DNA of 53,794 nucleotides from Actinomycetes bacterium (GTDB lineage: Bacteria > Actinomycetota > Acidimicrobiia > Acidimicrobiales > Palsa-688): NCBI GenBank assembly GCA_021838445.1, contig JAKCDU010000006.1:4816-58609 (forward strand), read 5' to 3'. This document shows, piece after piece, positions 17,723 to 50,181 of the stretch. Within the stretch, counting starts at the first letter, position 1. Each line of letters starts with the position of its first letter. The notes beneath the pieces were generated by a model. The model saw only the letters and a program-made list of their open reading frames with translations, did no database searches and was not told the DNA's origin. The translations under genes and the position numbers were made by a program.

Positions 17723-17732
17723 GGCCACCTTC

Positions 17733-17759
17733 CTGTTGCTATCGTCTAAAAGATAACAG
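17733..17759. promoter_or_regulatory. Operator between divergent ACAD genes
   Basis: The core TATCGTCTAAAAGATA (17740-17755) is an imperfect palindrome flanked by CTGTT on the left and ACAG on the right. It fills the 65-bp space between the divergent ACAD genes, overlapping the likely promoters of both. The core matches the site at 33020-33035 at 15 of 16 positions when that site is read on the other strand. A shared transcriptional repressor or activator is the simplest explanation. Confidence 0.7.
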
Positions 17760-17787
17760 GGCCACTGAACGGCGAGTTTCCCGGGTA

Positions 17788-18900
17788 ATGGACGCCACTT
17801 TCGACGAAGAACAGGAGATGCTCGCCCAAACCGCGGGCCGCATGGCCGACGCGCTCGGCCCGGGATCGGTCCACGAGCTGGAGTCCTACGACCCGTCCAA
17901 AGCCGTTGACGAACTGATCCGCAGTGGAATGCTGGGGCTCGCCCTACCCGAGAGGCTCGGTGGCAGCGGGGCGACCTGCGTGGAGGTCGCCATCGTGACC
18001 GAGGCCCTGGCCCGCCGTCTCGTACCGGTCCCGTACGTGGGTCCGGTCACGGCCCTCGATCTGCTGGCGGCGGCGGGTCAGGACGAGTTGGTGGCAGACG
18101 TCGTGGCCGGGGGCCGGGTGGTCACTCTCGGGCTCGACACCGGTCTCGAGGGAGTCGCCGAAGCAGGCGCCGCCGTGGTGGCCTGGGAGGCGGCCGGGGC
18201 CACAGACGTCGTCACGAGGGCGGGCGCCGACGGGTCGTGGGCTCCGACGCTGCGCGCCCTGGAAGCGGCGTCCGACCTCGACTGCGTCGATCTGACCCGC
18301 CGGCTGCGGCGCCTGGCGCCGGCCGGCAATGCGCCCGCCGGTACGGCCCCGGCCGGTGCGACTCCCGCTGGCACGACCTCGGTGGCGGCCGGTGAGTTGC
18401 GGCCCGATCAGATCGCCCGCTGGGAGGCCTTCGCCCTCAGCCTGCTGTGCGCCGACATCGTCGGCGCCATGGACGGCGCCCTGGCCATGGCCGTCGAGCA
18501 CGCCCATTCGCGCGTCCAGTTCGGCCGACCCATCGGATCGTTCCAGGCCCTCCAGCACATCTGCGCCGAGCAGCTCGTCGACCTGGAAGCCTCGCGCTCG
18601 GCCACCTACCACAGCGCCTGGGCCGTCGGAGGCCTACCCGCCGACCAGGCCCTCCGGGCGGCCCGGGTAGCCAAGTCATACGTTTCGCGAGCCGGGCGCT
18701 CGGTGACCGAGACGGTCCTGCAGGTGCTCGGCGGGATCGGCCAGACCTGGGAGAGCCTGGCCCACGCCTACCTGAGACGGGTGCTGCTCGACCGGGCCAC
18801 CCTCGGGGATGAGACCGTCCACGTGGCCCGGCTCGGCGCCATCCTGCAGAACACGGTCGGCGGGGACGGCAGGGACGGCGGGCTTCAGTCCGCTCGGTGA
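17788..18900 (+). CDS. Acyl-CoA dehydrogenase, catalytic-Glu subunit of a probable pair
   Basis: This 370-residue ACAD has a reduced middle domain and the C-terminal GGIGQTWES segment carrying the likely catalytic base Glu322. The FAD-contact C-terminus seen in the divergent neighbour is absent. The two genes are therefore complementary halves of one enzyme. A Pro-Ala-Gly-rich insert of four five-residue units (177-196, APAGN/APAGT/APAGA/TPAGT) joins the middle and C-terminal domains and is missing from the equivalent ACAD at 33140. It starts at ATG 17788, and its 3' end overlaps the convergent ligase by 16 nt. Confidence 0.88.
   Translation: MDATFDEEQEMLAQTAGRMADALGPGSVHELESYDPSKAVDELIRSGMLGLALPERLGGSGATCVEVAIVTEALARRLVPVPYVGPVTALDLLAAAGQDELVADVVAGGRVVTLGLDTGLEGVAEAGAAVVAWEAAGATDVVTRAGADGSWAPTLRALEAASDLDCVDLTRRLRRLAPAGNAPAGTAPAGATPAGTTSVAAGELRPDQIARWEAFALSLLCADIVGAMDGALAMAVEHAHSRVQFGRPIGSFQALQHICAEQLVDLEASRSATYHSAWAVGGLPADQALRAARVAKSYVSRAGRSVTETVLQVLGGIGQTWESLAHAYLRRVLLDRATLGDETVHVARLGAILQNTVGGDGRDGGLQSAR
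18316..18375 (+). repeat. Four 15-bp coding repeats (PAG linker)
   Basis: Four consecutive imperfect 15-bp units encode APAGN, APAGT, APAGA and TPAGT in the ACAD at 17788. They lie between the middle and C-terminal domains and read as a flexible linker made by slippage. Confidence 0.8.
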
Positions 18901-20483
18901 GGCGGCGGCCAGCCGGCCACGTGTCGTCGTAGGTCCACCTTGACGACCTTCCCCGACGAGTTGACCGGCAGCCCGTCCACGACCACGAACCGGCGGGGAC
19001 GCTTGAAATCAGCCAGGCGGCTGCGGCAGTGGGCCTCCAGATCGGCGACGGAGGGCTCGAGCCCTGTTCGTAGGACCACGAAGGCGACGGGGACCTCCCC
19101 CAGCCGGTCGTCGGGGGCACCGACCACCGCGGCCTGATCCACTCCGGGGCACTCCAGCAGAACCCGTTCGATCTCGGCCGGGTAGGCGTTGAGCCCGCCG
19201 ACGATCACCAGGTCTTTCAGCCGGTCGACGATCCGCAGGCACCCGTCCTCGCCGACCCAACCGATGTCACCCGTACGGATCCGACCGGCCGTGACCGCTT
19301 CGGCGGTCGCCGCGGGATCGTCGAGGTAGCCCGCCATGACCCCGTCTCCGCCGACCACGACCTGCCCGGTCCGTCCCGGGGGGAGGACCTCCCCGGCTTG
19401 GTCTACCACGAGCACTTCCACGCCGGGGATGGCCCGGCCCGAGGTCTCGGCCACCGTGTCGACGTCGTCGGCGGGACCGGTCATGGTGCACACACCGGTC
19501 GTCTCGGTCAGCCCGTAAGCGGTGAACACGTGGCGGACCCCGAGAACCGAGACGATCTCTCGAACCAGCGCCGGGGCCACGGTGGCACCGCCGGTGACGG
19601 CCACCCGCGGCGCAGCCTCGGCCGGCTCGGCGTCGCGCCAGCGGGCGATGAGCGCCTGGTACATCGTCGGGGGACCCTGCAGCACCGAGACCCCGCCGGC
19701 GCCGATCAGGGCGGCCAGGCGTTCGACGTCGAGAGTGGCGAAGGGTAGGGCGGTGGCGCCACTGGCCAGGCAGGCCAGCAGACCGGTCTTGTGACCGCCG
19801 ATGTGGGCGAACGGGGCGATCACCGGGTAGCGGTCACCGCTCCGCAAGCCCACGATCCTCGCCCACTCCCGAGTGGTGGTAACCATGGAGGAGTGGCGCA
19901 GCATGGCCCCTTTCGGGCGGCCGGTGGTGCCGGAGGTGTACTGGATGTGGCTGATGCTGTCCGGGCCGAGCCTGCCCAGGCGCCGCTCGACGGCGGCCCC
20001 GCCGCCGTCGGCTGAAAGCAGGGACGAGAGCGGCACCGTCCCCGGTTCACTTCCGGGCCCGAGCCCGATCACCGCTCTCCTGTCGCCGCCGGCCAGCGCT
20101 TCCCTGGCCAGGGACCGTCCGAGGAACTCGTGCTCGGCCACGACCAGGCGGCACCCCGACCGGTCGACGATGTCAGCCATTTCGCAGGTCGTGTACCTGG
20201 TGTTCACCGGCACGACGGTGGCGCCGGCAAAGGCCGCTCCGAGCGCCGCGGTAGCCCAATCGATGGAGTTGGGCGCCCAGATGGCGATCCTCTCGGCGGG
20301 CCCGACCAACTCGCAAAAGGCCCCCGCCACGCGCCACACCGAATCGAGCAGTTCGCCGAACGTGACCTGCCGCGGCCCGTCGTCGATGGCGGGGTCCTCC
20401 CCGGCGGTCGCGGCCGCTGCGAGCGCCAGCCCCGGGATGGTGTCAGGGTGGGCCCGGAACCTCCGCCGGCCGGCGTCTGCCAT
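18885..20483 (-). CDS. Acyl-CoA ligase (FadD-like)
   Basis: This 532-residue ANL-superfamily ligase has IQYTSGTTGRPKGAMLRHS as the P-loop, TAYGLTETTG as A5, GRIRTGDIG, IVDRLKDLVIVGGLNAYPAEIE at the hinge and NSSGKVVKVDL with the catalytic Lys. It is therefore complete. It would activate an acid for the ACAD pair, whose plus-strand member it meets tail to tail with a 16-nt overlap. The start is ATG 20483. It diverges from the GntR gene, so that regulator may act on the 122-bp intergenic region. Confidence 0.9.
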   Translation of the reverse strand: MADAGRRRFRAHPDTIPGLALAAAATAGEDPAIDDGPRQVTFGELLDSVWRVAGAFCELVGPAERIAIWAPNSIDWATAALGAAFAGATVVPVNTRYTTCEMADIVDRSGCRLVVAEHEFLGRSLAREALAGGDRRAVIGLGPGSEPGTVPLSSLLSADGGGAAVERRLGRLGPDSISHIQYTSGTTGRPKGAMLRHSSMVTTTREWARIVGLRSGDRYPVIAPFAHIGGHKTGLLACLASGATALPFATLDVERLAALIGAGGVSVLQGPPTMYQALIARWRDAEPAEAAPRVAVTGGATVAPALVREIVSVLGVRHVFTAYGLTETTGVCTMTGPADDVDTVAETSGRAIPGVEVLVVDQAGEVLPPGRTGQVVVGGDGVMAGYLDDPAATAEAVTAGRIRTGDIGWVGEDGCLRIVDRLKDLVIVGGLNAYPAEIERVLLECPGVDQAAVVGAPDDRLGEVPVAFVVLRTGLEPSVADLEAHCRSRLADFKRPRRFVVVDGLPVNSSGKVVKVDLRRHVAGWPPPHRAD

Positions 20484-20605
20484 GGCCGCCCAGGCTACAG
20501 AACCGGTGGCTGTGGCCCCGTCGCTGGGGGCCGGGATTCCGGGAGAATCAGGCTATCCCTGCTAACTTTTGTTGGTTATCGGTGCCGTACGTTCGGAGGT
20601 CTCCA

Positions 20606-21457
20606 TTGGCACGAGAGGGTGACAGCCAGGCAGACCGAGATGCACGCCGATCCGGGACGGATCGCTCGTCGGGCCGCCGGGAACGCTTCCGCCCGGCGGA
20701 GCAGCTACGCCAACCCCGACTGGCCGAGATGGTCGCCTCGTCGCTTCGCAACGAGATCCTCAGCGGACGGCTGAAGGACGGCGACACCCTCCCCCGACAG
20801 GAGGACCTGCTGGCCGATTTCAAGGTCAGCCCGCCCGCGGTGCGCGAAGCGTTACGGATTCTCGAGACGGAAGGGCTGATCAGCGTCCGGCGCGGCAACG
20901 TCGGTGGTGCCGTCGTGCATTTCCCCACGGCGCACGGAGTGGCCTACATGGTCAGCCTGGTCCTTCACGCCCAAAAGACGTCGCTCGGTGACGTGGGGGC
21001 CGCGCTGCGCCAGCTGGAGCCGGTCTGTGCCGCCATGTGCGCCCAGTTACCCGACCGCAACGAGGTTCTCGTCCCGCAGCTGGAGGCGATCATCCAGGAC
21101 CAGCTCGATGCCATCCACGATGTGATGCGCTACAACCAGGCGGCGAGAGAGTTCCACGAGACCATCGTCGCCAATTGCGGCAACGAGACCATGATCCTGG
21201 TCATCGGCAGTCTCGAGTCCCTCTGGTCGGCCCACGAGCGCCACGTCTACGAGATCAGCCCTGAGCCCAATGCGGTGGTGCGCCGCACCGCGGTGCGGGC
21301 CCACGAGAAGCTCGTCGCGGCGATAGCTTCGGGCAACACCGAATCGGCGGCGCAGATAGCCCGCCGCCACCTCGACGCCACCCAGGCCTTCACCATGTCA
21401 GCGGACTCGAACCACGACATCAACGCCGACCTGGTGCGCGACGGCCATCTGCCCTGA
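20606..21457 (+). CDS. GntR-family regulator, FadR/FCD subfamily
   Basis: This protein of about 283 residues has an N-terminal winged helix (LPRQEDLLADFKVSPPAVREAL then LISVRRG) and an all-helical FCD ligand domain. The latter has FHETIVANCGN and a final ARRHLDAT, whose acidic and His residues usually bind metal and an acidic ligand. TTG 20606 is preferred because GGAGG lies six bases upstream; GTG 20582 in the same frame is possible. It diverges from a ligase gene and is the best local candidate for sensing an acid or acyl-CoA. FadR-type operators usually have the core TGGT-N3-ACCA, and I see no clean copy in its own promoter. Confidence 0.87.
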   Translation: MAREGDSQADRDARRSGTDRSSGRRERFRPAEQLRQPRLAEMVASSLRNEILSGRLKDGDTLPRQEDLLADFKVSPPAVREALRILETEGLISVRRGNVGGAVVHFPTAHGVAYMVSLVLHAQKTSLGDVGAALRQLEPVCAAMCAQLPDRNEVLVPQLEAIIQDQLDAIHDVMRYNQAAREFHETIVANCGNETMILVIGSLESLWSAHERHVYEISPEPNAVVRRTAVRAHEKLVAAIASGNTESAAQIARRHLDATQAFTMSADSNHDINADLVRDGHLP

Positions 21458-21508
21458 GGTCCTCCCGCTACGGGCGAACCTGAAGCGCTCGCTGCAGAGG
21501 CGGGTGCC

Positions 21509-22477
21509 TCAGAGCCCGATCCCCAGGAGGCGGGCCAACCAATCGAGCCGGGCGGCGCGGGCCGACCGGGAGAGCGCCGCCTCGGGGGCGAACACGTCGA
21601 AGCCGTGAAAGCCACCCGGCCAGACATGTAGTTCGGCCTGCACGCCGGCTCTCCAGAGGCGGGCCGCGTAGTCCACGTCCTCGTCGCGGAAGGTCTCCGC
21701 CGACCCCACGTCGATGAAGGCCGGAGGCAGACCCGACAGGTCCTCGCACCGGGCCGGAGCCGCGTAGGGCGACACCCCAGGACCCGCAGCGGCCGTCCCG
21801 AGGAGGGCGGCCCACCCCGTCCGGTTGGATATCTGGTCCCACACCCCCTCCCCGATCAGTTCGGTGCTCGAAGGGGTCATCTCGCGATCGTCGAGCATCG
21901 GGCACATGAGCACCTGCCCGATCACCGCCGGCCCCCGCCGGTCACGGGCCATGAGGGCGACGGCTGCGGCCAGCCCGCCCCCGGCGCTGGTCCCGGCCAG
22001 CACGACGCGCGACGGGTCGACGCCGATGTCGGAGGCGTGCTCGACCGTCCAGCACAGCCCGGCGTAGCAGTCCTCGGCCCCGGCGGGAAACGGATGCTCG
22101 GGTGCCAGGCGATAGTCGACCGACACCACCACCACTCCCAACTGCTCCACCCAGTCGAGCAGTTGGGCCAGACCGGTGCGGCTGTCGCCCATGATCATCC
22201 CCCCGCCGTGGGTGTGGTAGATCGCCGGCGCGACCTGCTCACGGGAGGAGGGCTGGCAGACCAGCAGCGACAGCTCCGGGCCGTCGGGCGAACCGGGCAC
22301 GGTCAGCTCGCCCACCGCGATCCTCCCGTCACGACACAGATCTGCATCGCTCAGTCGATTGGCCCGTCCCGCTTCCCGGAACGCGGCGATGTCACCGGGC
22401 CGGATGCTCGGGGGGAGCCGGTCCCCCACCAGGTCCAGAAAGGTGGCCAGTTCGGGGTCGAACGGTGGGCGCGGCAT
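21509..22477 (-). CDS. Alpha/beta hydrolase of the HSL (hormone-sensitive lipase) family
   Basis: The 322 residues carry the oxyanion motif HTHGGG (His90-Gly93), the nucleophile elbow GTSAG with Ser164, the catalytic acid region TFRDED and the catalytic His in GGFHGFD. This is the complete HSL-family triad. The enzyme would hydrolyse an ester or lactone in the cytoplasm. Such esterases often follow Baeyer-Villiger oxidation, and a BVMO-type gene exists at 35517, so a link is possible but distant. The start is ATG 22477. A copy of the TATC-N8-GAT motif lies 17 nt upstream of it. Confidence 0.9.
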   Translation of the reverse strand: MPRPPFDPELATFLDLVGDRLPPSIRPGDIAAFREAGRANRLSDADLCRDGRIAVGELTVPGSPDGPELSLLVCQPSSREQVAPAIYHTHGGGMIMGDSRTGLAQLLDWVEQLGVVVVSVDYRLAPEHPFPAGAEDCYAGLCWTVEHASDIGVDPSRVVLAGTSAGGGLAAAVALMARDRRGPAVIGQVLMCPMLDDREMTPSSTELIGEGVWDQISNRTGWAALLGTAAAGPGVSPYAAPARCEDLSGLPPAFIDVGSAETFRDEDVDYAARLWRAGVQAELHVWPGGFHGFDVFAPEAALSRSARAARLDWLARLLGIGL

Positions 22478-22493
22478 GATCCCCCTCCAAAAC

Positions 22494-22509
22494 TATCGTA
22501 TTTATGATT
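22494..22509. promoter_or_regulatory. TATC-N8-GAT operator upstream of the HSL esterase
   Basis: TATCGTATTTATGATT contains the palindrome ATCGTA-TT-TATGAT with one mismatch pair. It shares the ATCGT and GAT edges and the spacing of the operator at 17740. It lies 17 nt before the esterase start and inside the 150-bp divergent region with the VOC gene. Confidence 0.5.
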
Positions 22510-22531
22510 GCGTACTTAGTGGTCGTAGGCG

Positions 22532-22561
22532 TTGACCGGTACCCGCTACCTATGCTACTTT
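22532..22561 (+). promoter_or_regulatory. Possible promoter of the VOC gene
   Basis: TTGACC (22532-22537) and TACTTT (22556-22561) are separated by 18 nt and precede the VOC start by 66 nt. The match to a housekeeping promoter is moderate. Confidence 0.4.
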
Positions 22562-22627
22562 TGGATCGAGATGTTCAGCTGAGCGGCGATCGGTACGACT
22601 CCGATCCGTGAGCCAGGGGGAGCCGGG

Positions 22628-23023
22628 ATGGCCAAGCTGCGCCATGTTGCGATCAAGTGCGAGGACCTACATTGGGCCGCCAAGTTCTACAGCGAGCTGT
22701 TCGAGATGGAAGAGGTCGGCCGGGCCGGGGACGTGGACACGTCCGGGGCCGTTTACCTGAGTGACGGGACCGTCAACGTGGCCCTGATCAAGGTCGACCG
22801 CGAGTACGTAAATGGGAAGATCGACGGCTTGAACCACGTCGGGCTGGTGGTGAAGGACATGGACGAGGCCGTGGCCCGGGCCCAGAGCATGGGCGTCGAA
22901 GCATTGGTCGATCCCCACGATCAGGCCGCCGGCGTCACCTGGGAGATGAAGATGCGAACGCCCGACGGGGTGTACTTCGACTTCTCCACCCACGGGTGGC
23001 CCGGTATCTCCGGCATCGACTGA
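22628..23023 (+). CDS. VOC (glyoxalase/extradiol dioxygenase-fold) protein
   Basis: This 131-residue vicinal-oxygen-chelate protein has the two expected beta-alpha-beta modules. The first starts at LRHVAIKCEDLHWAAKFYSELF with a metal-position His, and the second at LNHVGLVVKDMDEAVARAQ with another. The third ligand region, PDGVYFDFSTHGW, offers Asp instead of the usual Glu. The fold supports isomerase, epimerase, lyase or dioxygenase chemistry, and the size fits a single-domain member. It is followed after 13 nt by an unknown protein, so the two are probably cotranscribed. Confidence 0.8.
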   Translation: MAKLRHVAIKCEDLHWAAKFYSELFEMEEVGRAGDVDTSGAVYLSDGTVNVALIKVDREYVNGKIDGLNHVGLVVKDMDEAVARAQSMGVEALVDPHDQAAGVTWEMKMRTPDGVYFDFSTHGWPGISGID

Positions 23024-23036
23024 GCTCGACCATCGG

Positions 23037-23786
23037 GTGACTGCGCCGGTCCGGGCCTTCTTGGCCTTCACCGAGGTGGAGGTGGGGCGCCACGCCGACT
23101 ACAACGAGTGGCACCAGCTGGACCACCGGCCGGCCAATCTGGCTCTTCCCGGGGTGGTCTGGGGCGAACGGTGGGTGAAGACGCCGCGCTGCGCGACCCG
23201 GGTGGAGGGCGCCGACGAGGCCTTGACGGCCTGCCAGTACGTCACCATCTACTGGTTCCGTGAGCCTTTCGACCGCAACTTCGGTGAGTGGCTCGACCTG
23301 GGCTCCATGTCCTACCAGTGGGGGCGCCGACCCGAGTTACCGTACGTCAAGAGCCGTCCACTGGGGTTGGTGCTCGTGCCGCTATCAGGTCACGCCAACG
23401 CCCGGATCAAAGTAGGGGCGGAAGTCCTACCCCTGCGACCCAACCGGGGAGTGCACATCTCGGTCACCCGGGTCGAGGGGGAGCTGCTCGAGGTGGGAGC
23501 TCATTTCGAGGAGTACGAACAGGCCCGCGTGCCCGAGCTTCTCGCCATTCCTGGTGTGGCCGGGGCCTGGACCCTCGTGGACGAGGCCGGTATCGGCCTC
23601 ACCACCCGCCGTGGCTCGAGCGTGGCGTCCTGCACCCGGGTCACGGTGACCTTCATCGACGGCGACCCGCTCCTCGCAGCAGCTGCCATCGACGACCTCG
23701 GTCCGCCCTACGGCGCATGCGGGACGGTGCGCTTCGCCAGCCCGCTCGAAGCCATCATCCCCTGGCAGTGGAACTGGTTCGACTGA
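23037..23786 (+). CDS. Unknown protein with probable alpha-beta-barrel halves
   Basis: This 249-residue protein shows no family I can name. Two segments resemble each other in layout: an ADYNEWHQLDHRPANLALPGVVWGERW stretch in the first half and an FEEYEQARVPELLAIPGVAGAW stretch in the second. Each reads as a helix followed by a strand with a shared PGV turn. This is the pattern of ferredoxin-like dimeric alpha-beta barrels (EthD or DUF4286-like), here perhaps duplicated in one chain. Such folds include heme- and cofactor-free oxygenases and isomerases. The start is GTG 23037, 13 nt after the VOC gene, so a joint function is likely. Confidence 0.65.
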   Translation: MTAPVRAFLAFTEVEVGRHADYNEWHQLDHRPANLALPGVVWGERWVKTPRCATRVEGADEALTACQYVTIYWFREPFDRNFGEWLDLGSMSYQWGRRPELPYVKSRPLGLVLVPLSGHANARIKVGAEVLPLRPNRGVHISVTRVEGELLEVGAHFEEYEQARVPELLAIPGVAGAWTLVDEAGIGLTTRRGSSVASCTRVTVTFIDGDPLLAAAAIDDLGPPYGACGTVRFASPLEAIIPWQWNWFD

Positions 23787-23867
23787 ACACCCCCCGCCGA
23801 GCGCTGCGGGCCCAGCTTGGTCCACCCGCGGAGCCCGGGCGGAGCGGGCCCGGCGGACTGCAGTGGC

Positions 23868-24284
23868 TCAGCGGACCGGAGCGAACCGGTAGAGAGTGAT
23901 GTCCTCCTCGGGGACCTCTTCGTAGACGACGGTCAGGGGCATCCCCATGGTCACCTCGGCGGGATCGATACCCACCAGGTTGCCGGTGACGATCAGCGAG
24001 CGGGGCTCCTCGGCCAGCTTGGCCAGGACCACTGTGTAGGGCACCTCGTCGTTGAAGGCGCCCGGCCCCCGATGAACGACACTCCAACTCCACACGACGG
24101 CGTTGCCCGACACCGCGGTCCACACCTGGTGCTCCGACTGGCAGCTCCGGCAGGCCGGATAGGGGATCCAGTTCCAGTCGCCGCAATCGGCGCAGCGCGG
24201 CACGCGGAACTCGTGCTGGCGGAGACCTTCCCAGAAGGGGCGGTTCAGCTCGCTTGTGTCAGGCAGGGGCTTCAGGTAGGTCAT
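23868..24284 (-). CDS. DUF35 zinc-ribbon/OB-fold protein (Ltp partner)
   Basis: This 138-residue protein has a zinc ribbon with Cys31, Cys34, Cys45 and Cys48 (CADC and CRSC), followed by an OB-fold that ends at about residue 130. DUF35 proteins bind thiolase-fold partners and deliver CoA esters. In mycobacterial steroid degradation the DUF35 part of ChsH2 forms the aldolase with Ltp2. Here it is a separate gene directly after the Ltp-type gene (11-nt gap), so I infer the same complex. The ATG at 24284 is preceded by GAAGGACGCG. Confidence 0.88.
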   Translation of the reverse strand: MTYLKPLPDTSELNRPFWEGLRQHEFRVPRCADCGDWNWIPYPACRSCQSEHQVWTAVSGNAVVWSWSVVHRGPGAFNDEVPYTVVLAKLAEEPRSLIVTGNLVGIDPAEVTMGMPLTVVYEEVPEEDITLYRFAPVR

Positions 24285-24295
24285 ATCGCGTCCTT

Positions 24296-25471
24296 CTAGT
24301 CTCGGGCCATGACCAGCACGCTGCCCATTCCGTGGACGGCCCAGCCCTGCTGGAGGGAAACCCCGATCCGGGCATCGGGCACCTGACGGTCACCACAGGC
24401 CCCCCTCAGCTGGCGCACCACCTCGATGGTGTGCATCCCCGACGGATCACCGGAGTGACTGTTCGACAGGAGACCCCCATCGGTGTTGGTGGGCATCCTG
24501 CCCCCCAGACGGCAGTGGCCCTCCCTGACGAAGTCGGCTCCCTCGCCCAGCTTGCAGAACCCCATCTCCTCCAGGTTTCGGATCGTGGTGATGGTGAAGC
24601 AGTCGTACATGCCGGCCACATCGACGTCGTCGCGGGTGATGCCGGCGAGGCCGAAGGCCCGGTCGGTGGCCTTGCGCACCGACTTGCCGCCTTCGGGGAA
24701 CCACGGGTCGTTGATGGTTCCGTAGAAGTCGGTGTAGTAGGCCTCGGCCCCGCCGAGCACCCAGATCGGCTCGTGCCGACAGTTGCGGGCCACCTCGGCC
24801 GAGGCGATGACGATGGCATAACCCCCGTCATTGTCTATGGAGCAGTCGAGCAGGTGCAGCGGCTCGCAGATGTAGCGAGAGGACAGCACGTCTTCGACGG
24901 TGATCTCCCCCTTGCGCCCCATGACCGAATCGGGGTTGAGGACGGCATGGTGGCGGGTGAACACCGCTACCTCGGCCAGATCGGCGCTGGTCACCCCGAA
25001 CTCGTGCATGTAGCGGCGGGCCCACAGGGCGTACCAAGTGGTCATGTAGGCCCCGTGCTGCATGAAGCTCCACTCGGGGACCCGCGGGGCCTTGTCCTTG
25101 GGTGCGACCGTACCCCGAGGGCCCACGAGCTGGCCGGCCTTCCCGTAGAAGAGGACCGCCACCTCGGTCAGGCCGGCCGCAATGGCCGCTGCCGCCTTGG
25201 CCAACTGGCCGGATGCGCCTCCGAGCTCCACCAGGCTGAGCGGCCGCTCACCCAGTTGCTCGGCCCAGAACTGGTGGGCCGGCGTACCGGCCAGATGGTC
25301 GGTGAGGCTCATGGGCAGCAGACCGTCTACGTCGGCCAGTGTGAGCCCGGCGTCGTCCACCGCGCCCTTGATGGCCTCCAGCTGCAGCGAGAACGAGGAG
25401 CGATCCGGGAGCTTGCCCTGTTTGGTGGTGTACACGCCGACGATCGCCGCCTGGCGTTGGGGAAATGCCAT
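24296..25471 (-). CDS. Ltp-type thiolase-fold protein, probable retro-aldolase
   Basis: This 391-residue thiolase-superfamily protein (lipid-transfer/SCP-x type) has the N-terminal strand AAIVGVYTTKQGKL and the C-terminal NTDGGLLSNSHSGDPSGMHTIE. At the thiolase nucleophile position it reads VELGGASG, so Gly85 replaces Cys and thiolysis is not expected. Loss of the Cys is known in Ltp2, which performs retro-aldol cleavage with its DUF35 partner. The neighbouring MaoC pair and DUF35 gene make a hydrate-then-cleave sequence likely. It starts at ATG 25471, 17 nt after the MaoC gene. Confidence 0.87.
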   Translation of the reverse strand: MAFPQRQAAIVGVYTTKQGKLPDRSSFSLQLEAIKGAVDDAGLTLADVDGLLPMSLTDHLAGTPAHQFWAEQLGERPLSLVELGGASGQLAKAAAAIAAGLTEVAVLFYGKAGQLVGPRGTVAPKDKAPRVPEWSFMQHGAYMTTWYALWARRYMHEFGVTSADLAEVAVFTRHHAVLNPDSVMGRKGEITVEDVLSSRYICEPLHLLDCSIDNDGGYAIVIASAEVARNCRHEPIWVLGGAEAYYTDFYGTINDPWFPEGGKSVRKATDRAFGLAGITRDDVDVAGMYDCFTITTIRNLEEMGFCKLGEGADFVREGHCRLGGRMPTNTDGGLLSNSHSGDPSGMHTIEVVRQLRGACGDRQVPDARIGVSLQQGWAVHGMGSVLVMARD

Positions 25472-25488
25472 TTCGATCTCCTTCGCGG

Positions 25489-25905: not shown

Positions 25906-25924
25906 GATTTGGATCGTTCTCCCG

Positions 25925-26464
25925 TCAGTATCGGATGAGGACCAGGGTGCTGCGCTTGACCATCTCGTCGCGCTGGTTGGTCCAGGTCGTTTCCATGGGA
26001 GTGAGGAGCATCAACCCCAGGGATCCCTCCCGTTCACGGTACTGACCAAGTCGGGTCACCGAGGTGATCACGTCTCCCGGTCGAATCGGCTCGCCGTACT
26101 CGACCGAAACACCTCCGTTGAGCTGGTTCACCAGATGGGGACCGTCTATGCCGAGCGAGCGCTCGGTGCTGTCGGCGTCGGTCGCCGCCGATGATCGGCT
26201 CACGCCCTTGGGATGGGCCCGTAGCCAGGCAAAAGGGTTGAAGTCCTCAGGCGCTACGATCCCCCCTTGCCGGGAGGAGGCAGCTGCCTCCTCGTCCCAG
26301 AACCGGGCCGGGGGCTCCTCCGGGTAGTAGACGGCCAGAGCCCACTTCCTGATGTCCGACTCGGACACAGGATAGGAGACCATGCGGGACAGCTCTGACC
26401 CCACGGACTGCTGCATGGCCGCGCTGATAGCGGTTCGGGTCTGTCCTTCAGCCGTGTCGGCCAC
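25925..26464 (-). CDS. FAS1-like dehydratase-domain (MaoC N-type) protein, non-catalytic partner
   Basis: This 179-residue hot-dog protein has the signature FNPFAWLRAHPKG of the N-type MaoC domain, and no Asp-His hydratase motif is visible (AVYYPEEPPARFWD instead). It corresponds to the N-terminal domain of ChsH2 and would enlarge the acyl pocket of the catalytic partner. In ChsH2 this domain is fused to DUF35; here DUF35 is a separate gene two genes downstream. GTG 26464 is preceded by GAGGA and GGAGGAG. An AT-rich stretch at 26501-26517 is its probable promoter. Confidence 0.85.
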   Translation of the reverse strand: MADTAEGQTRTAISAAMQQSVGSELSRMVSYPVSESDIRKWALAVYYPEEPPARFWDEEAAASSRQGGIVAPEDFNPFAWLRAHPKGVSRSSAATDADSTERSLGIDGPHLVNQLNGGVSVEYGEPIRPGDVITSVTRLGQYREREGSLGLMLLTPMETTWTNQRDEMVKRSTLVLIRY

Positions 26465-26500
26465 TCCTCGGTCTCCTCCGCGCCGCGTGATCGGGTTTCA

Positions 26501-26517
26501 TTTAAATATATAGTAGA
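26501..26517 (-). promoter_or_regulatory. AT-rich probable promoter of the MaoC-Ltp-DUF35 genes
   Basis: This stretch contains TTTAAATATATAGTAGA, strikingly AT-rich in GC-rich DNA. Read on the minus strand it offers TACTAT and TATATT as -10 candidates about 40-50 nt before the GTG at 26464. It suggests transcription of the downstream genes independent of the RraA-like gene. No matching -35 could be fixed. Confidence 0.45.
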
Positions 26518-26547
26518 CAAGGCGCCCCACCGGCAGACCAACCGGGC

Positions 26548-27243
26548 TCAGCGGCCGTCTGCGCTCCACGCCGCCCGGTAGGCATCGAGGCTGAAGTCGT
26601 CCGACCGGCACACGTCGATGACCCGGCGCTCCGTCTCCTCGTGGGCGGCGATGGCGTCGGGGAGCTGGCCCACCAGGTGCAGTGGGACCTTCACCAGTCC
26701 GTGGCGGTCCCCGTGGAGGACGTCCCCGCTCGCCACCGTCACCCCCCCGACCACGACCGGTTGGCCAACCTCGAGCACGTCCACGAATCCACCGCCCACG
26801 CCGGGACCGTTGGAGAAGGTCTGGAAGCCGATGGCCTCCATCTCGTCGATGTCGCGCACCGGACCGTTGGTCACTCCGGCCGTGCAACCGAGGGCAGTGA
26901 GCAGGCTGGCTGCCACTTCGCCCCAGATGCAGACCGGGCCGGCCCAGTCACCCACGTTCTCAGCCACCAAGAAGCGCGGCTCACCGACGTCGAGGATGTG
27001 CTCGTCGTAGCGACCGGCGCGGCCCGACGGCCCTGAGGACGGCGGACCGTCGCGACGGGTGGCGACCTTGCGGGTGGCGGCAAACCCCACTCGGCGACCC
27101 AGGGCCGGCGAGGTACAGCCGATCACCCGGCGATCGAAGCTGGCCAGTTCCGAAGGATGTACGCCGAGCCGCTTCAACCCGTTCAGGATGGACGGCGTGC
27201 TGTAGTCGAGCAGCCGCTCGACCGTAGGTTCATCAGGTTGCAC
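26548..27243 (-). CDS. RraA-like protein (HMG/CHA aldolase or regulator family)
   Basis: This 231-residue protein belongs to the RraA/menG-like family. Conserved pieces are CTAGVTNGPVRDIDEMEAIGFQTF and SGDVLHGDRHGLVKVP, matching the GxxTxGxxRD and GDxxGxxxxP motifs that hold divalent metal in HMG/CHA aldolases. The metal-binding Arg and Asp are retained, so a class II pyruvate aldolase or oxaloacetate decarboxylase is more likely than an RNase E regulator. It precedes the MaoC-Ltp-DUF35 run by 83 nt and would be able to process an oxo-acid product. It starts at GTG 27243. Confidence 0.83.
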   Translation of the reverse strand: MQPDEPTVERLLDYSTPSILNGLKRLGVHPSELASFDRRVIGCTSPALGRRVGFAATRKVATRRDGPPSSGPSGRAGRYDEHILDVGEPRFLVAENVGDWAGPVCIWGEVAASLLTALGCTAGVTNGPVRDIDEMEAIGFQTFSNGPGVGGGFVDVLEVGQPVVVGGVTVASGDVLHGDRHGLVKVPLHLVGQLPDAIAAHEETERRVIDVCRSDDFSLDAYRAAWSADGR

Positions 27244-27346
27244 TACAGACCCTTCCCTCGTCGGTTGGCTCGCCCCAGGGTGGACGCCCGGCTGGCCAAG
27301 CCCGGCGCTTCGGGCACGCCACCGGCCGCGGCCCGTCGGTCCCTCT

Positions 27347-27577
27347 CAGTATCGCGAACACGCGCCCGTCGCGGCCGAGAGCCTCGAGGATCGACTTCGA
27401 GACCATGATGGACAGGCCAGCCATGGGCTCGACGAGCATCAGGATGCGGGGCTCGCTCATGAGAGCCTGGCCGATGGCCACCATCTGCTGTTCTCCGCCG
27501 CTCAGGAGCCCCGCGTTCCGATGCTCGTAGGTCTCGAGGATGGGGAACAGCTCGAACACCCGGTCCATGGCCCCCTG
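27347..27577 (-). pseudogene. Remnant of a LivF-type branched-chain amino acid ABC ATPase
   Basis: About 75 codons match the central part of LivF. RVFELFPILETYEHRNAG precedes the ABC signature LSGGEQQM and a run of AIGQALMSEPRILML. The Walker A domain and the C-terminal third are missing. The Walker B sequence reads LMLVEPMAG, where LLLDEPSLG is expected, so the metal-coordinating Asp is Val. Both features show a non-functional relic, suggesting that an uptake operon was lost here. It lies between the RraA-like gene and the coxM start on the minus strand. Confidence 0.85.
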
Positions 27578-27868
27578 ATCCGGATCCATATAATAACTAT
27601 CGTTGCTATGATAGGCAAGTTGCCGGTGTGCTTCCGGCGGTCGCACGACCAGCTGCGGTTACCCGTAGCCGTGTCGAGGTCGCCGAGGATGTGGGAGCCC
27701 AGGTTGGACGGCACGCTGGGGGAGTCGGGGGCGGGAGAGCCGCTTCGCCGACCGAGCGGCATCTACATGTCCGACCGCTCACTCGTCAGGGCCGAGCCCC
27801 GTCGGGCCTCCGGCGATCCTGTATAGGATTGACTCCCGAGACCACTCCGGTCCAGACCTGGGGGTGAA
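27578..27868. other. Non-coding space upstream of the molybdenum hydroxylase operon
   Basis: No gene is recognisable in these 291 bp. It holds a perfect TATAAT at 27589-27594 on the plus strand, next to an operator-like palindrome at 27598-27613, and a TTGACT at 27829-27834 with no usable -10. No family could be named from either strand. It may contain further decayed pieces of the ABC transporter cluster whose LivF remnant lies beside it. Confidence 0.45.
27598..27613. promoter_or_regulatory. TATC-N8-GAT operator between LivF remnant and coxM
   Basis: TATCGTTGCTATGATA is an imperfect palindrome inside the longer CTATC...GATAG (27597-27614). It shares edges and spacing with the operators at 17740, 22494 and 33020, and matches the 22494 core ATCGTATTTATGAT at 11 of 14 positions. 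It lies 255 bp upstream of the coxM start and 21 bp outside the LivF remnant. Confidence 0.5.
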
Positions 27869-28741
27869 GTGAAACCGTCCGCTTTCGAGTACCACCTGGC
27901 GGCGTCTACCAACGAGGCCGTCGATCTGCTCGCCGAGCACGAAGGAGACGCCAAGGTGATCGCGGGGGGCCAGAGCCTCGTGCCCCTCCTGGCCCTGAGG
28001 CTGGCCCGTGTGGATCACCTCGTGGACGTCAACCGGCTGAATGACCTCGGTGAGATATCGGCCAACGGCCGCCTACGCATCGGGGCGCTCACCCGCCACC
28101 GGACCGCCGAGCGATCGACCCTGGTCCGCCAGCACTCACCGCTGCTGGCCGACGCGCTCACCTACATCGGACATACCGCCATCCGCAATCGGGGGACCCT
28201 GGGTGGCAGCCTCGCCCACGCCGACCCCGCCGCCGAGCTGCCGGCCACCCTCCTCGCCCTCGACGGCGAGGTGGAGGTGCGTAGCGCTCGGGGCACCCGG
28301 ACCATCGCCGCCGGCGATCTGTTCACCGGTTTCCTCAGCACCAGCCTGGAGCCCGACGAGCTCCTGACTGGCCTCTCCGTGCCCTTGTGGAAGCCGGGCG
28401 CCGGATGGTCGGTGCAGGAGTTCGCCCGCCGTAGCGGCGATTTCGCCATCTCGGGGGCGTTGACGGTGCTGTCGGTCGGTGCAGACGGTCTGATCGACGA
28501 GGCCCGCATCGCCTTGATCGGCGTGGCGCCCACCGCGGTCAGGGCCACCTTGGCCGAGCAGGCGCTCGTGGGACAGCACCCCGCTGAAGCTCTGTGGTCC
28601 TCGGTCTCCGATGCGGCAGTCGCCGACCTCGAGCCGCCGTCGGACCTCCACGGGAGCTCCGCCTACCGCAAGAAGCTGACCAGCACCCTCGTCCGCCGCT
28701 CCCTGGCGGAGGCCGCATCGCGAATTGGAGCCGCCGCGTGA
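27869..28741 (+). CDS. FAD-binding medium subunit of a molybdenum hydroxylase (CoxM-like)
   Basis: This 290-residue FAD-binding subunit carries electrons from the 2Fe-2S subunit to FAD. The FAD motif AGGQSLVPLLALRLA and the second FAD segment RNRGTLGGSLAHADPAAE are clear. Relatives are CoxM and the medium subunits of aldehyde, nicotine and quinoline dehydrogenases. The start is GTG 27869, preceded by GGGGGTGA. It is the first gene of a three-gene operon, and its stop overlaps the next start by 4 nt (GTGA). Confidence 0.9.
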   Translation: MKPSAFEYHLAASTNEAVDLLAEHEGDAKVIAGGQSLVPLLALRLARVDHLVDVNRLNDLGEISANGRLRIGALTRHRTAERSTLVRQHSPLLADALTYIGHTAIRNRGTLGGSLAHADPAAELPATLLALDGEVEVRSARGTRTIAAGDLFTGFLSTSLEPDELLTGLSVPLWKPGAGWSVQEFARRSGDFAISGALTVLSVGADGLIDEARIALIGVAPTAVRATLAEQALVGQHPAEALWSSVSDAAVADLEPPSDLHGSSAYRKKLTSTLVRRSLAEAASRIGAAA

Positions 28742-29232
28742 ACCGCCACCCCGTCCATGTGAAGATCAACGGCGTCGACCGGGACGGCTACGTCGAAGCC
28801 CGCAAGACCCTCGTGGATTTCATTCGAGAGGACCTCGAGCTAACCGGCACCCACGTCGGCTGCGAGCACGGGGTATGCGGGGCCTGCACCGTCCTGGTCG
28901 ACGGCCAAGCCGTGCGGTCGTGCCTCATGTTCGCGGTGCAAGCCGAGGGTTGCGAGATCCGCACCATCGAGGGCATGGCCGGCCCTGACGGCGAGCTGCA
29001 CCCCCTACAGGCCGCCTTCAGGGACAATCACAGCTTCCAGTGTGGCTTCTGCACCCCCGGCTTCATGATGACTGCGGCCTCCCTGCTCGAGGAGGGCCCC
29101 TTGTCCGAAGACGCGCTGAGGCACGAGCTGTCGGGGAACCTGTGCCGCTGCACCGGGTACCAGTCCATCGTCGCCGGAGTCATGGACGCCTTCGAGCGGG
29201 TCTCCGACTCGACCGGGGAGGGAGGTCGATGA
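28738..29232 (+). CDS. 2Fe-2S small subunit of a molybdenum hydroxylase (CoxS-like)
   Basis: This 164-residue protein holds both iron-sulfur clusters of a xanthine oxidase-family enzyme. The plant-ferredoxin-type ligands lie in CEHGVCGAC plus a later Cys (RSCL), and the second cluster in CGFC and CRCTGY. All eight Cys are present. It starts at GTG 28738, four bases inside coxM, and its TGA overlaps the ATG of the large subunit (ATGA), so the three subunits are made in balanced amounts. Confidence 0.92.
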   Translation: MNRHPVHVKINGVDRDGYVEARKTLVDFIREDLELTGTHVGCEHGVCGACTVLVDGQAVRSCLMFAVQAEGCEIRTIEGMAGPDGELHPLQAAFRDNHSFQCGFCTPGFMMTAASLLEEGPLSEDALRHELSGNLCRCTGYQSIVAGVMDAFERVSDSTGEGGR

Positions 29233-31550
29233 GATTCGTCGGCGAGAGCGTCACGCGCGTCGAGGACCGGCGGATTCTCACCGGTCGTGGCCACTACATC
29301 GACGACGTGCGGCTGCCGGGGATGCTGCACGCAGCATTCCTGCGCAGCCCCTTCGCCCACGCCCGGATCACCCGGATGGACACGACCGAGGCCCGGAACC
29401 TGCCCGGAGTGGTCGCCGTCCTGACCGGAGCCGACATCGAAGCGGTGACGGTTCCCATCCAGGTGATGCCGCAATTCCCGGACTTCAACAGCCCGGTCTA
29501 CCAAGCCATGGCCACCGACCGGGTGCGCTTCGTCGGCGACCCCGTAGCCATCGTCGTGGCCCAGTCGAGGTACGTCGCCGAGGATGCGCTCGAGCTGATC
29601 AACGTCGAGTATGACCCGATGCGGCCCGTGGTGAGCTTCGAGGACGCCCAGGACCCGAACTGTCCCCGCATATTCGACGACATCGAGGGGAACGTCCTCT
29701 ACCGCTCGAACAGCACCCACGGTGACGTGGATGCGGCCTTCGCGGCCGCCGACACCGTCATCCACGAGACCTTCCGCCAGTCCCGCCAGGCCAACGTCCC
29801 TATGGAGACCCGCGGTGCGGTGGCCGATTTCGATCCGGGCTCGGGCGACCTCACCTACTACGCCGCCACCCAGTCCCCTCAGGGCTGCCGGTTCCAGCTG
29901 GCCACCTATCTCAACCACCCCATCGACCGGGTGCGGGTCCTGTCGGGCGACGTGGGCGGCGGTTTCGGGCTGAAGGGACCGGTGCACCGGGAGGACATCT
30001 CACTGGCCGCGGCCAGCCGTATCGTGGGCCGGCCGATCAAGTGGATCGAGGATCGCAACGAGCACCTGCAGGCGTCGGGTCACGCCCGCGACGAGCAGAT
30101 CGAGGTGGAGGCGGCGGTCACATCTGACGGCCGCCTGCTCGGCCTCAAGGCCCGCCTCCTCATAGACCAGGGCGCCTTCCCCTGCCTGCCCTATGCCGCG
30201 GTCCTGTTCCCGAACATGATCCGCGACCTGCTGCCCGGGCCCTACCGGTTCGGCGCAATGTCCTTCGAGGGTCTGGTGCTGGCCACCAACAAGTGCTGGA
30301 ACCCCCCCTACCGGGGCCCCTGGGAGATCGAGACCTGGGTGCGCGAGCGGCTCATGGATGTGATCGCCCACCGCCTGGGCATGGACCCGGCCGACATCCG
30401 GCGGGCCAACATGTTCGACGGGGACGAGGAGGACCGCAGCATCACCGGCCAGCACCTCGCCGGCATCACCAGCCGCCAGTCGCTGGAGCGGGCCCTGGAC
30501 CTGGCGGGCTACAGCGCCATCCGAGCTGCTCAGGAGTTGGCCCGGCGGGAGGAACGGCTGCTCGGGGTCGGCTTCGCCACCTTCCTCGAGGCCGCCCCCG
30601 GGCCCAAGGAGAACCGGGTGATCCCCGAAGACGCTCGCGTGCGGCTCGAGTCAAACGGCCATCTCCTCGTGATGACCCCCCAGGGACCACACGGTCAGGG
30701 CCACGAGACCACGCTGGCCCAGATCGCCGCCGACGCCATGGGTCTGCCCCTCGATCACGTTCGGGTGGTGCACGGCGACACCCGTCAGACACCCATGAAC
30801 CTCATCGGCACCGGCGGCAGCCGGGCTTCGACCTGGGCTTCGGGTTCGGTCATGGTCACCACCCGGAAAGTCCGGGAGAAGGCGCTCGGGGTGGCTGCGG
30901 CCATGATGGAGATCGATGCCAGCGACCTCGACATAGTCGACGGCATGGTCGTCCCGGCGGGTGCCCCATCCAAGGCCATGCCCCTCTCGGCCATCGCCAT
31001 GACGGCCTACCTCGCCCCCGAGACGCTGCCGCCCGGGACCGACCATCATCTCGAGGCCCAGGAGACCTTCACCGGTGACGGCGTCGGCGGGAGCGGGTGG
31101 TCGGGCGGGACCCACCTGTGCGTGGTCGAGATCGACCGGGAAACCGGGCGGGTGGAGATAGTCCGCTACGTCGTGGTCGAGGACTGCGGCCAGATCATCA
31201 ACCCGGCCATCGTGGAAGGCCAGATCCGCGGCGGGGTGGCCCAGGGCATCGCCGGGGTCCTCTACGAGAAGGCCGCCTACGACGCCGAAGGGCAGTTCCT
31301 GGCCGGGACGTTCATGGACTATCTCCTGCCGACCGCGACAGAAATTCCCAGTATCGAGATCGACCACCTGGAGTCGGTTCCCGTCGAGGGCCTGGACATC
31401 CGGGGGGTCGGCGAAGGCGGGGCCCTCGTCGCCCCCGCCGCTTTGACCAACGCCATCGAGGACGCGCTGGTGCCGCTCGGTGTCACCATAAACGAGCAGT
31501 ACCTCCCCCCATCGCGGATCATGGAATTGACAAGGATGGTGCCGGCCTAA
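29229..31550 (+). CDS. Molybdopterin large subunit of a molybdenum hydroxylase (CoxL-like, substrate unknown)
   Basis: This 773-residue large subunit of the xanthine oxidase family has the N-terminal TGRGHYIDDV, the Moco-binding GGGFGLKGPVHRED and the catalytic Glu729 in GVGEGG. Where form I CO dehydrogenase has AYXCSFR and form II-like proteins have AYRGAGR, this protein has PYRGPWE (Tyr361 onward). It is therefore not a form I CO dehydrogenase, and I infer hydroxylation of an aldehyde, N-heterocycle or similar compound. ATG 29229 follows GGAGG. No cofactor maturation gene is adjacent. It ends at a strong hairpin facing the amidohydrolase gene. Confidence 0.88.
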   Translation: MRFVGESVTRVEDRRILTGRGHYIDDVRLPGMLHAAFLRSPFAHARITRMDTTEARNLPGVVAVLTGADIEAVTVPIQVMPQFPDFNSPVYQAMATDRVRFVGDPVAIVVAQSRYVAEDALELINVEYDPMRPVVSFEDAQDPNCPRIFDDIEGNVLYRSNSTHGDVDAAFAAADTVIHETFRQSRQANVPMETRGAVADFDPGSGDLTYYAATQSPQGCRFQLATYLNHPIDRVRVLSGDVGGGFGLKGPVHREDISLAAASRIVGRPIKWIEDRNEHLQASGHARDEQIEVEAAVTSDGRLLGLKARLLIDQGAFPCLPYAAVLFPNMIRDLLPGPYRFGAMSFEGLVLATNKCWNPPYRGPWEIETWVRERLMDVIAHRLGMDPADIRRANMFDGDEEDRSITGQHLAGITSRQSLERALDLAGYSAIRAAQELARREERLLGVGFATFLEAAPGPKENRVIPEDARVRLESNGHLLVMTPQGPHGQGHETTLAQIAADAMGLPLDHVRVVHGDTRQTPMNLIGTGGSRASTWASGSVMVTTRKVREKALGVAAAMMEIDASDLDIVDGMVVPAGAPSKAMPLSAIAMTAYLAPETLPPGTDHHLEAQETFTGDGVGGSGWSGGTHLCVVEIDRETGRVEIVRYVVVEDCGQIINPAIVEGQIRGGVAQGIAGVLYEKAAYDAEGQFLAGTFMDYLLPTATEIPSIEIDHLESVPVEGLDIRGVGEGGALVAPAALTNAIEDALVPLGVTINEQYLPPSRIMELTRMVPA

Positions 31551-31586
31551 CCGGCGGCACCATTAGGGCCATTGGCGCTGGAAGGC

Positions 31587-31632
31587 GAGTCGAGGAGCGG
31601 GGTGGTCCGTGGGCCGCCCCACTCCGCGACTC
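31587..31632. terminator. Strong hairpin between converging genes
   Basis: A 19-base left arm (31587-31605) and right arm (31614-31632) pair at 16 of 19 positions around an 8-base loop. It lies between the stop of the CoxL-like gene and that of the amidohydrolase. There is no T-run on either side, so it could terminate both transcripts only if U-independent, or act as an RNA-end stabiliser. Confidence 0.6.
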
Positions 31633-31657
31633 ATCTGGTCTGATTCAGATCTCGGAG

Positions 31658-32947
31658 CTACTTCGGCATGATCGCCGAGGGCACCTTGACGTTCGTCATG
31701 AAGTAGTCCCGATCCGACTGGTCCGGAGCTCGACCAACCCTGGTGACCACATCCACGTCCGGCGCTTCGGCGCGAAGGGCGGCGGCGGTGCAGCGTTCGC
31801 GGGGTCGGATCCGGTAGGGGTCGAACGAGTAATGCCTCATGGCGTTCTCGTGGGTGATCTTGTTCACCACGACATCGTCAACTCCGGCGAGAAGCTCCTC
31901 GAGCACCTCCGGGGAACGCGGCCAGGAGGAATCGGAATGGGGGTAGTCGCACTCCCAGCACACGTTGTCCAGGTTGAACTCGTCGAGAAGCTTCACCCCG
32001 ATGCGGTCCTGGATGAAGCAGCAGAGCAGCCGCTCGCGAAACACCCGAGCCGGCCCCCACCCCTCCGGGAAGTAGTGCTGGGTCCAGCCGAAATGACGCT
32101 TCTGTATCCACTCCGCCCGCTGCAGGAAGTACGGGATCCACCCGATGTCGCCCTCGGTGAGTGAGAAGCGCAGATCAGGGTACCTCCACCAGATGTCGGC
32201 CCACATGAGGTCACCCAGCGAATATATGGACATGGCCGACGAGATGCTCATGTTGACGCTGGGAGGCGAGTCGTCGGAGGTGGCGGCCCCCCGGGAGGAC
32301 GAGCCCACGTGGAGGCAGAGGACGGTGCCCTCGTCGGACGCCGCGGCGAAGAGGGGATCCCAGTGGCCACTGTGGATGGACGGCAGCTTCAGTGCCGCCG
32401 GATTCTCCGAGAAGGTGACGGCGTGACAGCCCTTGGCCGCCAACCGGCGTAGCTCCTCGGCACATTTGGAAACGTCGAACATGGGCAGCACCCCGCACGG
32501 AATGAACCGGTCCGGGTAGGCTCCGCACCACTCGTCGACGTGCCAATCGTTGTACGCCTTGATCATCACCTCGTTGAGTGCCCTATCGGGGCCTTCCCAG
32601 AGGACCTGACCGGAGAACCCCGTCCAGTTCGGGAAGTTGAGGCCGGCCAGAAGGCCACCGGCCGACATGTCCCGCACCCGCTCGTGGACGTCGTAGCATC
32701 CCGCCCGCATCTCTTGGTAGCGCTGTGGGTTCACGTTGTACATCTCCGGAGGCTTGCCGGCGACGGCGTTCAACCCGAGGTTGCGGCCTTTGCGGTCACC
32801 GAACCACCACTGCTGGTAGCCATGCTCGTCGGTAACCACGTGCGGCGCCCGATCCCGGTAGCGGTCGGGAACATGAGCCTCGAACATGTCAGCGGGCTCG
32901 GCGATGTGGTCGTCCACGCTGACCAGGATCATGTCGTCTGCGCGCAT
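31658..32947 (-). CDS. Amidohydrolase_2 family metal hydrolase or decarboxylase, paralogue 1
   Basis: This 429-residue protein is of the ACMSD-like amidohydrolase-2 family. It retains a first metal site (SVDDHIAEP), the CLHVG His and a C-terminal WECDYPHSDSSWP, where Asp and His serve as metal ligands and base. Such enzymes decarboxylate or hydrolyse acids and lactones. It is clearly paralogous to the protein at 36996 (for example AGCYDVHERVRDM against PGAYDIHERVRDM). ATG 32947 has GGAGG seven bases upstream; the longer frame to 33004 has no such site. An operator copy lies 72 nt upstream, and the ACAD pair diverges from it. Confidence 0.86.
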   Translation of the reverse strand: MRADDMILVSVDDHIAEPADMFEAHVPDRYRDRAPHVVTDEHGYQQWWFGDRKGRNLGLNAVAGKPPEMYNVNPQRYQEMRAGCYDVHERVRDMSAGGLLAGLNFPNWTGFSGQVLWEGPDRALNEVMIKAYNDWHVDEWCGAYPDRFIPCGVLPMFDVSKCAEELRRLAAKGCHAVTFSENPAALKLPSIHSGHWDPLFAAASDEGTVLCLHVGSSSRGAATSDDSPPSVNMSISSAMSIYSLGDLMWADIWWRYPDLRFSLTEGDIGWIPYFLQRAEWIQKRHFGWTQHYFPEGWGPARVFRERLLCCFIQDRIGVKLLDEFNLDNVCWECDYPHSDSSWPRSPEVLEELLAGVDDVVVNKITHENAMRHYSFDPYRIRPRERCTAAALRAEAPDVDVVTRVGRAPDQSDRDYFMTNVKVPSAIMPK

Positions 32948-33019
32948 CCAGCACCTCCATGGAAGCTGAGGACCCAAGAAGGATCCGTTCGAATCGACGC
33001 GCATCTACACGTACGTCAA

Positions 33020-33039
33020 TATCTTTTAGATGATAACAG
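33020..33039. promoter_or_regulatory. Operator upstream of tandem ACADs and amidohydrolase
   Basis: The sequence TATCTTTTAGATGATA (33020-33035) followed by ACAG reads on the minus strand as TATCATCTAAAAGATA preceded by CTGT. The core is 15 of 16 identical to the site between the divergent ACADs at 17740, and the ACAG/CTGT flank is also shared. It lies in the 192-bp region between the divergent amidohydrolase and tandem ACAD genes and adjoins a TTGACG on the minus strand. Confidence 0.7.
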
Positions 33040-33139
33040 CCGGCGCCCGGTACTGTCACCCGGGTTGCGGCCGCCGCCCTGGAGTAGTGTCTGGTGGGGA
33101 CCAGCGGATGGATCGCCCGTTCGCTCCCGGAGGGAGACC

Positions 33140-50150: not shown

Positions 50151-50181
50151 CCCGTACCCCCACCCGTTGATTTGCAATATC

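Follow-up and report, generated by a model that had tools for sequence, protein, structure and literature searches.

Do two nearly identical 16-bp words that lie beside separate pairs of acyl-CoA dehydrogenase (ACAD) genes act as operators, and if so, which protein reads them? We addressed this question in a 53,794-nucleotide stretch of DNA, hereafter the window, from an Actinomycetes bacterium of the order Acidimicrobiales (lineage Palsa-688; GCA_021838445.1, contig JAKCDU010000006.1, positions 4,816 to 58,609). The words are TATCGTCTAAAAGATA at 17740-17755 on the forward strand (site 1) and TATCATCTAAAAGATA at 33020-33035 on the reverse strand (site 2), identical at 15 of 16 bases, and their coordinates and sequences were confirmed as an earlier reading of this DNA (the original prediction) had given them. 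Comparison with other genomes points to the GntR-family regulator encoded at 20606-21457 as the protein that very likely reads both.

Two rare palindromes between divergent genes

At up to three mismatches, the word occurs twice in the window, compared with a mean of 0.02 in shuffled sequence. In the 3.99 Mb source genome (3,986,990 bases in 117 contigs, 96% complete), sites 1 and 2 are the only matches at this threshold, and a reversed control pattern gives one forward and one reverse match. Both sites fit the imperfect palindrome TATCnTYTARAnGATA, which at up to two mismatches has two places in the source genome, namely sites 1 and 2 with no mismatch; its reversed control also has two places, each with two mismatches. 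About 0.001 exact matches per genome are expected from base composition. A chance origin was ruled out by the rarity of the sites in shuffles, by the genome scans and by the composition expectation, and we regard it as close to certain that the two sites are real operators.

Both sites are intergenic and lie between divergent genes. Site 1 separates the ACAD gene 16556-17722 (reverse strand), the full-length partner of a divergent pair, from the ACAD gene 17788-18900 (forward strand), a partner without a match to the Pfam middle domain. The listed start of the former is 17728; a GTG at 17722, preceded by AGGAAGG, is conserved in three species, and the palindrome ends 17 bp from this probable start on one side and 32 bp from the ATG of the 17788 gene on the other. 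The neighbours of site 2 are an amidohydrolase-2 family gene (31658-32947, reverse strand), with a probable start at 32947 preceded by GGAGGT, and a tandem ACAD pair on the forward strand (33140-34276 and 34273-35508, the second scanned as 33862-35508), which begins with a TTG at 33140; all these assignments come from Pfam. The flank common to both sites in register is TGY before TATC. The CTGT or CTGTT that had been described as a shared left flank is out of register by 2 bp (site 1 has CTGTT(GC), site 2 has CTGT), and ACAG behind GATA is found at site 1 only. As a separate observation, relatives of the 16556-18900 pair in Pseudomonas, Frankia, Sphingomonas and Microbacterium are tandem and in the same orientation, and in the window's genus the pair is divergent around the operator.

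Conservation of the sites within the genus

Three genomes represent the genus among the 99 searched, the source genome, G001 and G002. Site 1 is exact and at the same place in all three, inside a 34-bp block (17727-17760) that is invariant across the three species and includes at its left end AGGAAGG, the probable ribosome-binding site of the 16556 gene; the region around site 1 has about 73% identity overall between the window and G002. Site 2 is present in G002 as TATCCTCTAAAAGATA, flanked as in the window by the amidohydrolase and ACAD genes; the bases next to the core differ from those of the window on both sides, and in both genomes GATA is followed by a short (R)CAGC stretch. The closeness of both sites to ACAD genes could mean that they are copies left by a recent duplication of an ACAD module, with no regulatory meaning. 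This origin was rejected on the unrelated flanks of sites 1 and 2; their neighbouring genes also differ, and in G002 the flanks next to site 2 have diverged around a preserved core, making such an explanation extremely improbable.

The alignment with G001 jumps from 31554 to 33047, with the amidohydrolase gene and site 2 both missing and the ACAD pair 33140/34273 kept. Because site 2 was lost together with the amidohydrolase gene and not with the dehydrogenases, it is not simply an ACAD site; judged from this alignment, it is linked to the divergent amidohydrolase gene at least as closely as to the dehydrogenase pair. The original prediction had placed each site in the divergent promoter of a paired-ACAD module: the divergent setting stands for both sites, and the restriction to ACAD pairs does not, here or in other genomes. 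The syntenic stretch of G001 also lacks the CoA-ligase gene (18885-20483), besides the amidohydrolase gene and operator 2 (31658-33046), which represents module gain or loss within the genus. The record JAGWSF010000062.1 is titled Acidobacteriota although its contig belongs to the window's genus, the phylum set of which groups with mycobacterial rows, and the title is probably wrong.

The palindrome adjoins genes of one GntR subfamily

The regulator at 20606-21457 (forward strand) has an N-terminal GntR winged-helix domain (PF00392, E 1.3e-17) and a C-terminal FCD domain (PF07729, E 1e-16). A Pfam scan of 50 open reading frames of the window, with 51161-53794 outside the scan, gave two regulator matches, this GntR/FCD protein and an IclR protein at 50171-51124. 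The original prediction had named the GntR at 20606 and any TetR proteins as candidates; the former is favoured by the comparisons below, and no TetR regulator was found among the 50 frames scanned. The GntR protein is 98% identical in G001 and 88% identical in G002, compared with 86-90% and 66-69% for the 17788 ACAD, and its DNA-binding domain (78 columns) is 100% identical between the window and G002. The source genome has one member of the GntR subfamily.

We searched 397 genomes of the order for the palindrome at up to one mismatch. Among the listed places outside the genus, exact palindromes occur in G170 (two), in G198 (one) and in G242, where the control matches too; matches in G100, G201, G384 and AT-rich genomes were treated as background or set aside. 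G170, from another family of the order, has in addition a third site at one mismatch and no control match. One of its exact sites separates the genes for a GntR/FCD protein and a branched-chain-type transporter and is 57 bp away from the GntR match; the other falls in the gap that immediately follows the 3' end of a CoA-transferase gene; the one-mismatch site lies between enoyl-CoA hydratase and CoA-ligase genes, and a site at two mismatches precedes an amidohydrolase-2 gene. The G170 GntR is 44% identical over its length to that of the window; the other FCD paralogues of the genus that were examined are 28-32% identical, the exception being a further subfamily member in G002, which also reaches 44%. 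The perfect palindrome TATCTTCTAGAAGATA of G198 lies between an amidohydrolase-2 gene and a subfamily GntR gene, 147 bp before the GntR match.

Using the G170 GntR as a query, we retrieved 26 genes in 13 of the 397 order genomes (E 1e-45) and 21 genes in 14 of 396 genomes of the phylum (1e-55), and examined 43 distinct upstream regions (26 from the order and 17 from the phylum). Exact TATC-N8-GATA is present in four of them, those of G170, G198 and the near-identical pair G746/G447, which gives three independent cases; the dinucleotide-shuffle mean is 0.015, and there were no matches at any of ten other arm spacings between 4 and 14. The G746/G447 word, TATCTTGTACAAGATA, stands shortly before the probable ATG. 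Some of the remaining 24 GntR promoters of the order set contain weaker words (Fisher p 0.002, a supportive but not a strong result), the clearest being a 14/16 match 189 bp before the GntR gene of G119. In a tree of the regulators, the window GntR falls in one clade (98/93) with a group that includes mycobacteria-like rows carrying TATCTTGTACAAGATA (family f89, so called from the grouping of its GntR rows with a M. branderi plasmid row at 100/100), and site-bearing rows are scattered over several branches.

Eleven subfamily-carrying genomes contain 27 sites at up to two mismatches. Outside the genus (eight genomes, two of them without sites), 7 of 17 sites have a subfamily GntR gene within 10 kb compared with 0.19 expected (Poisson P ~2e-9, a value that presumes uniform site placement), and 4 of 17 lie within 1 kb; for the reversed control pattern in the same 11 genomes, the count within 10 kb is 0 of 13 places (compared by eye). 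Across genomes, the operator fronts amidohydrolase-2 genes (in G198, G170, G119 and Novosphingobium), CoA-ligase/enoyl-CoA-hydratase, SDR and transporter genes, as well as GntR genes.

A further case comes from another phylum. Plasmid pABRDHK22 of Novosphingobium sp. EMRT-2 encodes a 47% identical FCD regulator (FA702_RS21155) and carries TATCATTTAAAAGATA, the 16-mer of G170, 0.7 kb from the regulator gene between a nitroreductase gene and a small gene. A second site, TATCATATTAAAGATA, precedes an amidohydrolase gene by 20 bp; this gene is the first of a series for CoA-transferase, enoyl-CoA hydratase, paired ACAD, CoA-ligase, thiolase, OB-fold and Rieske proteins. These are the only exact-arm sites in 50 kb, and both fall within the 3,052 bases of that stretch that have no listed gene in the PLSDB gene table, which is incomplete. 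The enzymes are 26-39% identical to those of the window, below the value for the regulator. The operon behind an exact-arm site in Novosphingobium (L200:8916-23843) is annotated with CoA-transferases, nitronate monooxygenase, an ACAD pair and Rieske genes, a set that presumably recalls steroid C/D-ring genes.

Because the same TATC-N8-GATA adjoins subfamily GntR genes in distant bacteria, we favour the GntR/FCD protein as the reader of both sites, and the cross-genome comparison gives good support to the earlier proposal that one regulator co-controls the two loci. Alternatively, another protein, either the window IclR or one encoded elsewhere, could bind the sites, with the GntR merely resident in similar clusters: the IclR is the only other regulator match among the scanned frames of the window, and the Novosphingobium cluster also holds an IclR, plus a LysR and a TetR. 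This alternative is unlikely in our judgement. In G170, G198, G119 and two mycobacteria-like genomes, the GntR gene itself has the palindrome immediately upstream, as in an autoregulated repressor, and the flanking genes scanned at those GntR loci, a part of the total, gave no IclR match. The upstream region of the window IclR (50060-50260) was checked for the canonical GntR motif only, which has no match there.

In addition to the uniform placement presumed above, several observations weigh against the GntR as reader. Its own promoter in the window has no clear operator (best 11/16, p 0.17), 39 of the 43 subfamily upstream regions lack exact TATC-N8-GATA, and the order-wide search matched 38 of 397 genomes, many with similar counts for the control pattern. 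G310 and G155 carry the GntR and have no site at up to two mismatches in either assembly, the DNA-binding domain of the G310 protein being 87% identical to that of G170. Searches around the relatives in M. branderi (50 kb) and Rhodococcus USK13 (12.7 kb) gave no site, and G001 retains the 33140/34273 pair without site 2. Before the window GntR gene, a conserved block, TATCCCTGCTAACTTTYGT at 20554-20575, is invariant in three species and contains the extended -10-like TGCTAACTT; we do not claim autoregulation through this block, which matches the operator at only 11/16 positions (p 0.17).

Shape of the operator and comparison with known regulators

We aligned 16 instances of the operator, chosen for matching, so that the counts are biased. 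The half-site starts with TATC; the fifth base can be any, usually T or A, the sixth is T, and the last two are usually Y and T, with A2 and T6 constant in 32 of 32 half-sites. The centres vary (TCTAAAA, TTTAAA, TCTAGA, TTGCAA and TTGTACAA), and the arms and their spacing are constant. The arms read TGYTATnnT and resemble extended -10 boxes, and the left arm of site 2 reads as a -10 box facing the amidohydrolase gene (GTGACA-18-TATCAT with TG, a consensus match only); together with the TGCTAACTT of the GntR promoter, these features would suit a promoter element, paired extended -10 boxes of two strong promoters, in place of an operator. We consider this very unlikely. A promoter element would be expected to be common in the genome, whereas the word is found twice; the arm spacing is fixed at 8, the symmetry survives the core changes TCTAGA, TTTAAA, TTGCAA and TTGTACAA, the word tracks one regulator subfamily, and site 1, checked for a promoter, gave no match.

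The FadR subfamily of GntR regulators includes FadR, LldR and PdhR, and a survey gives TKGT-N2/3-ACMA as the consensus operator of FadR-type proteins and Arg as the most frequent residue at position 28 of their helix-turn-helix (HTH), where it contacts G (PMC4494728). Like this subfamily, the window regulator combines a GntR winged helix with an FCD domain, and it would have a palindromic AT-rich operator, a single site in each divergent intergenic region and metabolic targets. Unlike the consensus of that survey, the window operators follow TATCnTY-nn-RAnGATA and have no GT/AC boxes: TKGT-N2/3-ACMA, which is its own reverse complement, has no match at zero or one mismatch on the forward strand in 17700-17800, 32950-33140, 20484-20610 or 50060-50260. 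Position 28, set by alignment to E. coli FadR residues, is Glu in 24, Asp in 17, Gly in one and Ala in one of the 43 subfamily members, and thus Glu or Asp in 41 of 43 and Arg in none. The survey also lists BioR, NanR and FarR as GntR-family members with non-canonical operators (PMC4494728). The window regulator resembles these proteins in that GntR proteins can read other words; as given there, the BioR operator is TTATMKATAA and those of NanR and FarR are direct repeats, none of them equal to TATC-N8-GATA.

By sequence, the closest solved relative of the window GntR is PDB 2di3 (E 9e-12), which we take to be LldR of Corynebacterium. All 43 subfamily members retain the three FCD histidines. 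The Asp that stands four residues before the first of them in 2di3 is absent in all 43, where this residue is Ala, Ser, Gly, Met or Val and never Asp or Asn, and because of this absence a complete Asp-His3 metal site is unlikely in the subfamily. KstR and KstR2 are TetR-type repressors of actinobacterial sterol catabolism, with operator words that differ from TATC-N8-GATA. The window GntR would resemble them as a local or global repressor of CoA-dependent catabolism with paired acyl-CoA dehydrogenases, and differs from them in protein family and operator words. A search of the open-licence literature for the 14-base cores, for the spaced word, and for GntR with FCD, ACAD, steroid, Mycobacterium or Novosphingobium gave no paper naming the motif among those listed.

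Other candidate sites in the window

A tentative third operator, TATCGTTGCTATGATA at 27598-27613 (forward strand), lies upstream of a CoxM/S/L-like molybdenum hydroxylase operon. It has exact arms, matches the consensus at 13 of 16 positions and has a core resembling the TTGCAA core of two G340 sites; it was not found in the regions aligned in G001 and G002, and we hold it with low confidence. Of the weak sites, 22494 is not conserved in G001 or G002, and 6987 and 14965 are kept in G001 only, where the background identity is 88-94%, and were not found in the available G002 pieces. The word at 14965-14980, TATCCTGTGCAAGCTA, lies between two forward-strand genes and resembles the mycobacteria-like TATCTTGTACAAGATA. 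At 6987-7030, TATCGGTAAAAGGATT is followed by a promoter-like TTGAGG...TATAAT stretch between divergent genes, well kept in G001.

Proposed mechanism and significance

We propose that the GntR would bind each palindrome as a dimer, its two winged helices each contacting one TATCnTY half-site, and that binding at sites 1 and 2 would block the divergent promoters. Repression rather than activation is the probable outcome of such binding; we infer occlusion from the closeness of site 1 to the start codons and from the arm of site 2 lying on a -10-like box. The ligand may be an intermediate of the pathway, probably an acyl-CoA or organic acid; its binding in the FCD domain would release the GntR and so induce the two dehydrogenase pairs along with the amidohydrolase.

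The regulator is of a known kind with an operator outside the usual code, and its branch has no description that we found in the literature searched. We consider it reasonably likely that it belongs to an undescribed branch of FCD-type GntR proteins, with LP[KR]Q[DE] in the HTH and a code of its own (TATCnTY-nn-RAnGATA, N8 fixed), which governs modules of CoA-dependent catabolism (amidohydrolase-2, paired acyl-CoA dehydrogenases, CoA ligases and ChsH2-like/thiolase genes) in at least two phyla and has travelled with its clusters, for example onto sphingomonad plasmids. Together, these comparisons turn an orphan motif into a regulator-operator pair that is testable in an uncultured lineage of actinobacteria as well as in a Novosphingobium isolate with the plasmid. 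The operator offers a route to functionally linked catabolic genes of unknown substrate, and the results suggest that some FCD-type GntR proteins recognise DNA by a code other than the TKGT/ACMA rule.

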